64,000 bases of DNA from contig NC_087386.1 in assembly GCF_963675165.1 (NCBI RefSeq), forward strand, positions 90,001 to 154,000. The letters run 5' to 3'. Positions within the stretch are counted from its first letter, which is position 1; the number at the start of each line of letters is the position of its first letter. The notes under the pieces are model-generated. The model made no database searches. It saw only the letters and a program-made list of their open reading frames with translations, and was not told the DNA's origin. Positions 25,768-28,700 of this stretch are shown one piece after another. The translations under genes were made by a program, and so were the position numbers. This DNA is from Halichondria panicea. Taxonomy: Eukaryota; Porifera; Demospongiae; Suberitida; Halichondriidae.

Positions 25768-28700
25768 TCATTTAGTTTGGCTGTCTAGAGCTGCTTGCAT
25801 GTAGTGACACTCCCACTGCAAGAAAGAGGTGTTGAGCAACAAGACTGAGTATTATATAGTGGTACCTCATCATTGGTGGAGTGTGTCCATAGCTGCAGTC
25901 CATCTCTCCAATCAGAGGGGTTAGGTACACAGCTCACAATGTCTCCCCTACACACACACACTCTCATTATGACAAGGGTATCTATACACACACGTACCTA
26001 AGAGTCAGTAGTGTTCGCACAGGCTCTGTAGATGACCTCTCTTGAACATCAAGAGTCTCTATGTAGGAGAGCTTGTACACTCCAGGACTACTGCCACCAC
26101 CCTTACGCCCACGCACTGTGTTGTGAGCAAATACTGTTTGCCTCCTTCTGTTTAAATGACCATCATCTTGAGTCACTGAAGACAACAGACCACCAGAGCC
26201 AATCCTTCCTCTGAACTCTGGCACACTCTCCTGTCCCCCGGTCAGCTTGTGTGCTAGGGCCTTTACACGAGACGATGGATTAGGCACACCAGCTGCTACT
26301 GTGAACAGGTGCACACAACCACCTCCAGTTCCTATGAGAAGCTTTCCCTTATCGTACAGTATCGACGTTATTCGCATCTCTTGCTGTTGTTGCTGGGTCT
26401 GTGTGTGGGTGTGAGGGTGTGTGGGTGGGTGAGTGGGTGGATGGGTGTGTGTCACCTTGTGGTCCACTAGACCTCGGGGGGAAGGTAGCAGAGCAGTGTA
26501 GTCTAGTTGCAACAGCTTGATGTAGTAGTCAGTGTCAAACAAGCAGACAAGAGTTGTCTTTCTGAAGGTGATCCAAATCCCTTGATCACCACACTCCATT
26601 TTGTAGACCTTTCCTACTTGGTCTGGCATGGTGACTGATTGTACAGCCTCCAGTGTTCTGCAGTGTGTGTGGGTAGTGTGAGTAGTGTAGGTAGTGTGGG
26701 TAGTGTGGGTATATACAATAGAGTAAGAGTTACCCTGTGGAGATGACTGTGACAGCTTTAGCACATCCACACCAGAGCTCTCTCTTGGTTTCATTGAGAA
26801 CCATGCATTGCACTGGAGCACTGGACCCAATACGCACAAACAGAGGGTCATCTTGTGGTAATGATGAACTGGGAGTCTGAAAAAGACAAAAGATAAATAA
26901 TCAAAATTAATGATAGACTACCTAAAGACAAAAGATAAATAATCAAAATTAATGATAGACTACCTGTAGGACAGCAATGCATCCATCAGCTAGAGCAGCA
27001 TAGACACAAGAAGAGAGCTCATTTACTGCCAAACTGAGTACAGAATCATTGAGCTTGATAGACCAGAGATGACATTGCTCAGAACCAGATACTGCATGCA
27101 CATAGAAGTCCAGTGTTCCCAGTAAAATCACCCCAGTCCAACTCATGTAGGTCATGCAGATAACACGAGACCCCACCTACACACACATAGGGTCCGAAAT
27201 ACACACTACCTGATGCAGGGGGACCACTATACCTGAGGCAGAGTGACTTGTACTGGTGATCCTAGGTCTGGGTCTAGAATAAAGATATGCGTGAGTTGGT
27301 CCTCTGAGGCAGTCATCCACAACTCAGTCTCTTCCCGCACACAGCCAGTCTCCCACATCACACGCCTCTTGTCAGGAGAAGGAGGGAGAGCACTCTTGAC
27401 AGCACTCAGAGCTTCACGCACTCTCTCTCTCTCATTCCAAGCAGTACGAGCTACAGCAAAGTGTACTGCATGCCTAGAGCTCAAGTGACTACGCTTGGGA
27501 AAGGGGTTGAGGTCCACAAAGGCAGCCTATATAGAATACGTACATACAAGTCATGTGATACACATGTTATCACCTGAAAGAGAGCTTCAATATCGTACGT
27601 ATGTCTAGCCAACTCTTTCAAGAACTGGAACAATCCAACCGGATCTGTTAGACTCAGAATCTTCTTTTCATTGATTTTAAGGATCCCCAAAGACATTCGA
27701 AACAAAACTTTAGTCCCCTCCAGAAGAAAACAATCGAGAATTCTAAGCACTGTCTGTGTACGTGTGGGTTAGTAGGTGTGGCAGTGGGTGTGGTCTTACC
27801 TCTGTGGGGAGGGCATCTACAAACAGAGTGAGAAACCAGTTGAAGGTGACTAGAGTTACATCAATGGAGTAGCGCTGGAGATGATGGGAGAGGAGTGGAA
27901 GTTGTGTGGCCACTAGCTCTCGTACCACAGCCTAGGAGGGGTGAGGGGGCGGATGTGAGGGTGTGTGAGGTGTGAGGGTAGGGTTTACCTGGTCAGCTTG
28001 AGGGGCCAACAGTCCAGGAGAGAAGTACTGTTGAGGCATCAGTTTGTCTATCACACACACCAAGAACCTACCATGCAGACATCAGTGAGGTTGGCAAAAT
28101 ATTAACCAATATATCCCATAATACATGTTGAGACATGACTAGCACTAGAGTACCTATTATAGCCTCAGGCATTGTCTGTTAGTATTGCACAACCTTGCCT
28201 ACCTTACAATGACTACAACTGATAATGAGCTCACCAGAAGTCAGTCTCTTCATCTAGGAAGAGTAGTCCAATGGCAGCCAACATGTTCATACCCTACACA
28301 CAAACACACACATGACATAATGTAAGCTGGGACTATTGTACTACTCTTACTTGACAGTAGCCCACGTTCTTGTTGTGAATACTGTAGGCCAGGAGCACAT
28401 TCTCCAGTTTAGCAGCCTGTGCAGACAACGAAGGTTAGGTCTCTGTACACACACACCACATTTAGTGAATGCCTCTAGGATGAGTTTGCAGAATCATGAG
28501 TGTCACTGGTGTATCATATAATTATATCCCTATGGGAAATGCTCATAATTATAGTAAAACAGACCACAGTGTGTACACAAAATCCATATAAGGAATGCCT
28601 ACCCTCTGTACCATTATAATGGTAGTTATGGTGCAGGGCATTGTACAATAGCACGCACGCACGCACGCACGCACGCACGCACGCACGCACGCACACACAC

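Follow-up and report, generated by a model that had tools for sequence, protein, structure and literature searches.

Rab-inactivating proteins and proteins with a propeller of the JIP/ARHGEF10/LRRK type act in related endolysosomal traffic. The vertebrate TBC1D2 form ends shortly past the TBC tail, which is perhaps no defining trait. TBC1D31/WDR67 also combines a propeller and a TBC domain in one protein; its propeller consists of N-terminal canonical WD40 repeats and belongs to another class. According to one study, Armus/TBC1D2A is an inhibitor of Rab7 and is brought to autophagosomes by its interaction with LC3 (PMC3898768). For Syd, the fly JIP3/4 protein, sections of another study assign the binding of kinesin light chain, dynein and Rab2 to the coiled-coil half at the N-terminus (RH1/LZ/RH2), where Rab2 binds RH2 (PMC12772503). 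The same sections describe the WD40-containing region as required and sufficient for strong binding of RUFY, an Arl8 effector, and call the JIP WD40 domain one of unknown function (PMC12772503). In mammals, as an excerpt of a third report has it, SKIP-HOPS recruits a separate GAP, TBC1D15, for the Rab7-to-Arl8 switch (PMC7073467).

The window analysed here is a stretch of 64,000 nucleotides from the sponge Halichondria panicea, whose genome was searched as 131 Mb in 39 contigs (C-numbers below denote contigs of this genome). With a probability of roughly 0.7, it holds one intact-looking TBC1D2-type RabGAP gene with a C-terminal propeller of the JIP3/4-ARHGEF10-LRRK superfamily, gained or kept from an old fusion, that serves as an addressing module. 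To judge from the sequence, known parts are combined here in a way that is real and unusual. A literature search on TBC1D2 or the TBC domain with propeller, WD40, domain fusion or sponge, covering open-licence titles and the starts of abstracts, returned no such fusion, and nothing was found in open-licence literature on ARHGEF10 with JIP4 and WD40. Among GTDB contigs (bacteria and archaea, a search that reaches close relatives only), four stretches match a pattern and none is a confirmed relative.

The gene and its RabGAP half

The gene lies on the minus strand at 31982..25768 and has 28 exons encoding 1170 aa plus a stop, from an ATG at 31982-31980 to a TGA at 25770-25768. With the exons joined at consensus sites, all 27 introns are GT-AG and the frame is unbroken, without an internal stop. 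The introns range from 41 to 448 bp, and the six that follow the junction exon, exon 22, measure 56, 87, 76, 57, 50 and 50 bp. The initial annotation had the same gene running on past the TBC tail, and this is borne out by exons 22-28, which are open and in phase. The three peptides that it quoted and LNPFPKRSHL are all present on the minus strand, and its exon limits are correct within a few bases, with exon 22 ending at 27233 and exon 23 spanning 27176..26964. The region 24800-32600 is N-free, and the sole N run in the window is one of 200 bases from 13731. A 40-bp minisatellite of about 11 copies (30914-31344) makes up most of intron 5.

A Pfam search with the whole protein gives five families above their own cut-offs, out of 14 with an E-value no greater than 1. 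The PH domain (PF00169, 33.9 bits, cut-off 25.1) covers residues 24-117 in exons 2-5, with the last residue in exon 6 (31354..31904, minus strand), and the RabGAP-TBC domain (PF00566, 182.1 bits, E 1.5e-53, cut-off 25.2) covers residues 470-683 in exons 14-21 (27655..29441, minus strand). The TBC region also matches RabGap-TBC_2 with 106.2 bits, and PH followed by TBC is the order of the TBC1D2 family. Exons 9-10 (30094..30506, minus strand) encode a charged leucine-rich stretch, read from the translation as a probable coiled coil, over which Pfam gives sub-cut-off matches only. Arg524 of IQLDLYR (residues 518-524; 28825..28827, minus strand) and Gln560 of GYCQ (residues 557-560; 28351..28353, minus strand), located by position in the translation, are taken to be the arginine finger (IxxDxxR motif) and the glutamine finger (YxQ motif) of the TBC dual-finger mechanism. 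Both catalytic finger motifs are present, and GAP activity on a Rab is predicted. The N-terminal 770 residues match 15 distinct PDB sequences at E up to 0.001 (best 3.4e-39), and all but LD10117p carry names of TBC/RabGAP proteins, among which we presume USP6NL and Gyp1 to belong. After LNPFPKR a further 448 residues follow, so the vertebrate-form end shortly past the TBC tail is not seen here.

A second TBC1D2-type gene is found at C3:~544-555k, and the reading of the window gene as the genome's one TBC1D2 is rejected. By Pfam and by reading, the C3 gene has a PH domain (55 bits), a TBC domain (198 bits), then a short charged tail and a stop. Its TBC domain is 44% identical to that of the window gene over 268 aa and its fingers are IELDLLR and GYCQ. 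Of the 33 rows that the own-genome TBC search gives, the window gene accounts for 10 and C3:546k for 3; by E-value the latter is the strongest match elsewhere (2.8e-21, 52% over its best stretch) and is followed by C10:2857k (2.3e-7, 43%), and short stretches of other loci reach 50%. This comparison covers the own-genome TBC genes, and the TBC1D2 name of the nearest one is itself our assumption, made from its architecture and from motifs that we take to mark the family. In the ~1.7 kb below the stop of the C3 gene, no propeller exon was recognised by reading. A whole-genome search with the propeller family PF19056 gives nine places, none at this gene, a weak result since the window gene is also missed; neither this search nor that with a second propeller family, PF23748 (12 places), lists the window gene, because both work exon by exon. 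A protein search of the genome gives seven places, all within the window gene, with four candidates scored. As the C3 gene ends without a propeller, the fusion gene is a paralogue, and its propeller-free counterpart is a built-in control in the same genome.

An intron of the C3 gene holds an uninterrupted 398-aa frame (L028 7151-8347, minus strand), between host exons and on the same strand as the host. The 375 aa from its Met match no Pfam family at E up to 0.001, and its HSHIDH motif is presumably like that of metallo-beta-lactamase folds.

Repeats also lie elsewhere in the window. There are 182 perfect GGGTTA repeats at 12638-13930, a span that includes the adjoining 200 N; they face right, straight into the N run, and to their left lie a perfect 31-bp satellite and a 104-bp satellite (10041-11475, 12006-12639). 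Since this telomere-like end stands 103.7 kb inside contig C10, it suggests that the left scaffold piece is wrongly oriented. GGGTTA-type repeats also stand at the start of contig C1 and near its position 18.1375 Mb, among the first places listed. Six tandem copies of ~700 bp with open frames of ~110 aa occupy 14587-18500 and keep at least 96% identity to the reference copy over a 300-nt core, and a 1.2-kb tandem duplication at 19602-21937 is 96-99% identical over the reported 300-nt stretches. The neighbour gene at ~34600-40200 (plus strand) reads as what we take to be a Slo2/KCNT-type potassium channel; Pfam matched just one of its three frames submitted, 35670-36374 (Ion_trans_2, 47 bits). 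Elsewhere in the genome, Wnt matches, which mark it as that of an animal, occur at 10 places on C3, C6 and C12. Peptidase C1 matches 77 places, and the two genes that were read in a check for silicatein both have the ordinary catalytic Cys (CGSCW) and gave no sign of one.

The junction exon and the predicted propeller

In exon 22 (27233..27526, minus strand; 294 bp, 98 aa, residues 711-808), a single open frame runs from the last part of the TBC1D2-type tail into what are presumably the opening strands of the propeller (ELWMTASED...IFILD). LNPFPKR stands at 716-722, and 86 further residues follow in the open frame up to a GT donor. The exon closes after ELWMTASEDQLTHIFILD, a stretch that lies at the alignment start of the own-genome JIP-like and ARHGEF10-like propellers. 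The Pfam Beta-prop_LRRK2 model starts at residue 775 and the JIP-like blastp alignment at 779, both inside this exon. For residues 771-808 alone, the JIP score is matched by 27 of 5000 shuffles and the summed JIP and ARHGEF10 score by 28 of 5000, while the ARHGEF10 score by itself is matched by 626 of 5000 and is not significant. Alignments of three own-genome propeller profiles start at 800 and 805, within nine residues of the exon 22 end, and at 811, in exon 23; the ARHGEF10-like blastp alignment starts only at 839. These late starts weaken the case for a blade 1 within exon 22, for which the support is modest and comes mainly from the JIP alignment and from the start of the LRRK2 model at 775. 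The joining of the exons is unaffected, since it rests on the open frame and the short introns.

Exons 23-26 (25998..27176, minus strand; residues 809-1127) encode the putative propeller body, supported by Pfam, blastp and profiles; the family match ends at ~1033 and the remainder is unmatched. Exons 27-28 (25768..25947, minus strand) encode the C-terminal end, without a family match, which by its position may be a closing blade (GLQLW). In the whole protein, Pfam gives WD40_2 61.1 bits at 836-1029 and Beta-prop_LRRK2 60.0 bits at 775-1027. In the C-terminal 460 residues the scores are 69.4 bits for WD40_2 (cut-off 22.5, E 3.3e-19), over profile positions 118-301 of 488 only, and 63.6 bits for Beta-prop_LRRK2 (cut-off 26.9, E 2.2e-17). 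The family matches span residues ~775-1033, and the last ~135 residues (~1034-1170) have no family match in Pfam or among the own-genome profiles. The C-terminal part is a predicted beta-propeller, with a family match that is partial relative to a seven-blade ring. A profile of seven own-genome propellers from other genes scores 92.6 bits with the window protein, against 9.5 for the best of 500 shuffles of the propeller, 0.5 for the reversed propeller and -1.7 for the first 764 residues; these seven were joined by eye from exon fragments, which may lower a score and would hardly create one. A PDB sequence search with the propeller found no propeller relative, and its one match is an LSm protein at E 0.85. 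With Pfam scores above the cut-offs and a profile score far above the shuffles, the proposal of a propeller of the JIP3/4-ARHGEF10-LRRK kind fused to a TBC1D2-type RabGAP is upheld.

Among the seven own-genome propellers, blastp with the window propeller ranks the ARHGEF10-like one nearest (E 5e-13, 26% over 197 aa), the JIP-like one second (E 3e-10, 22% over 268 aa) and LRRK third (E 9e-6), followed by Roco_C15a (3e-4), Roco_C16 (0.004), C16_1188k (0.067) and Roco_C15b (0.41), all E-values referring to a set of eight sequences that includes these seven. In an ML tree of eight rows the window propeller stands beside JIP+ARHGEF10 (90/91) and outside that pair (91/89); two of the rows are cut at the C-terminal end, branches are long, and none of the five inner branches reaches the 95/80 mark. 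The tree agrees, with moderate support, with an affinity of the propeller to ARHGEF10/JIP. A pure LRRK origin is the weaker reading, as it falls behind ARHGEF10/JIP by both blastp and the tree. Its counterweight is that the scores are close, 69 vs 64 bits in Pfam and 59.6 vs 60.7 bits for group profiles of JIP+ARHGEF10 (two members) and of the LRRK-like propellers (five members) against the window protein; at these values the profile test does not separate the two groups. The IGTGGG motif of the window gene presumably resembles LRRK2.

The ARHGEF10-like locus (C3:8139k) has both RhoGEF (84 bits) and WD40_2 (144 bits) in Pfam. The C6 locus has a WD40_2 propeller (111 bits) and coiled-coil exons and is called JIP-like on these grounds, and its N-terminal fragment gave no JIP family in Pfam. 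One of the 12 places matched by PF23748 is the ARHGEF10-like locus on C3; three lie in single open frames of 1667-1744 aa, and at some of these loci kinase-like stretches are seen upstream of the propeller by reading. Genes with LRRK-type propellers look numerous, on C14, C15, C16 and C17.

Possible function and other readings

By analogy with Armus/TBC1D2A, the TBC domain would switch off an endolysosomal Rab, with Rab7 as the first candidate, and the PH domain and probable coiled coil would provide membrane contact and dimerisation. The propeller may be an addressing module for a partner on vesicles, perhaps a RUFY/Arl8-type protein like the one bound by the WD40-containing region of fly Syd, and Rab inactivation would thereby be delivered where this partner sits. 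We infer that the propeller gives targeting or regulation of the RabGAP; the Rab substrate and the propeller partner named here are guesses from relatives. The initial annotation went further and proposed a coupling of Rab inactivation to a cargo/motor adaptor surface. The TBC1D2-type RabGAP/propeller architecture in one gene stands, and the motor-adaptor surface as stated does not, because the motor contacts of Syd are N-terminal in the sections cited (PMC12772503) and the window gene shares the propeller only. As the motor-binding parts of JIP are absent from the window gene, a motor link is only indirectly possible, for example through RUFY.

That two adjacent genes, one of TBC1D2 type and one for the propeller by itself, have been read as one is scarcely credible. 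Two in-frame ATG codons (MTYM) near the start of exon 23 would allow it, as would the own-genome profile alignments, of which two start only in the final residues of exon 22 and the third in exon 23. But exon 22 stays open for 86 residues past LNPFPKR and ends at a GT donor, and it already contains the start of the match to Pfam's LRRK2 propeller model and that of the JIP alignment. The next intron is 56 bp and later ones are 50-87 bp, in which a terminator and a promoter would find little space. With the TBC tail and what are presumably the opening propeller strands sharing one exon and introns this short after it, a second promoter hardly fits, and the two-gene reading is rejected on the single junction exon and the short introns. 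A decaying or non-functional appendage, or a fusion made by misassembly, is also very improbable. The ~135 C-terminal residues without a family match and the doubtful scaffold join further left (13731-13930) speak for it, but exons 22-28 are open and in phase, the propeller scores well above cut-off, and the junction lies inside one 294-bp exon of an N-free region.

The remaining alternatives accept the fusion and concern its role and age. LRRK propellers are said to dimerise, and a coiled coil and a propeller in one chain would suit a dimer; the propeller might then mainly regulate the enzyme, by dimerisation or by autoinhibition of the GAP, rather than address it to a membrane partner. The results fit this role and the targeting role alike. 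Regulation is possible but less probable, since the only published one met for a related propeller region, in sections of the Syd study, is partner binding, namely of RUFY (PMC12772503). A recent, lineage-specific fusion with a propeller copied from the sponge's own ARHGEF10-like or JIP-like gene would fit the blastp ranking, in which these two are nearest of the seven. It is rather unlikely, however, as identity is only 22-26% and the fusion stands outside the JIP+ARHGEF10 pair in the tree, which suggests an older split or fast evolution. Bolder, and quite doubtful, is the idea that the gene belongs to an ancient and so far undescribed subfamily of RabGAPs that vertebrates have lost. Its members would dock on Arl8/RUFY-marked vesicles through a JIP3/4-type propeller built into a TBC1D2-type GAP; if it existed, one polypeptide would perform the Rab7-to-Arl8 identity switch.

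The preferred reading is that of a TBC1D2-type RabGAP with a propeller as addressing module. A fusion found in nature gives a 'Rosetta stone' clue that its two halves, GAP and propeller, serve one and the same membrane, and it points to a pair of proteins that can be tested.

Comparison with known systems

TBC1D2 (Armus) and TBC1D2B have in common with the window gene the PH domain, a coiled-coil-like middle, a TBC domain with Arg and Gln fingers, and the LNPFP tail, which we take to be the signature of the family. The window gene adds the 448 residues past LNPFPKR, mostly propeller. With JIP3/JIP4 (Syd) it shares the WD40_2 family, in an alignment that starts in exon 22, whereas the N-terminal RH1, leucine zippers and RH2 of JIP3/4 have no counterpart among the 14 Pfam matches of the window gene at E up to 1. 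ARHGEF10 likewise shares the WD40_2 propeller, but its RhoGEF (DH) domain, which the own-genome ARHGEF10-like locus has, is absent from these 14 matches. LRRK1/2 share the Beta-prop_LRRK2 propeller, and neither their Roc-COR GTPase nor their kinase is among the same matches.
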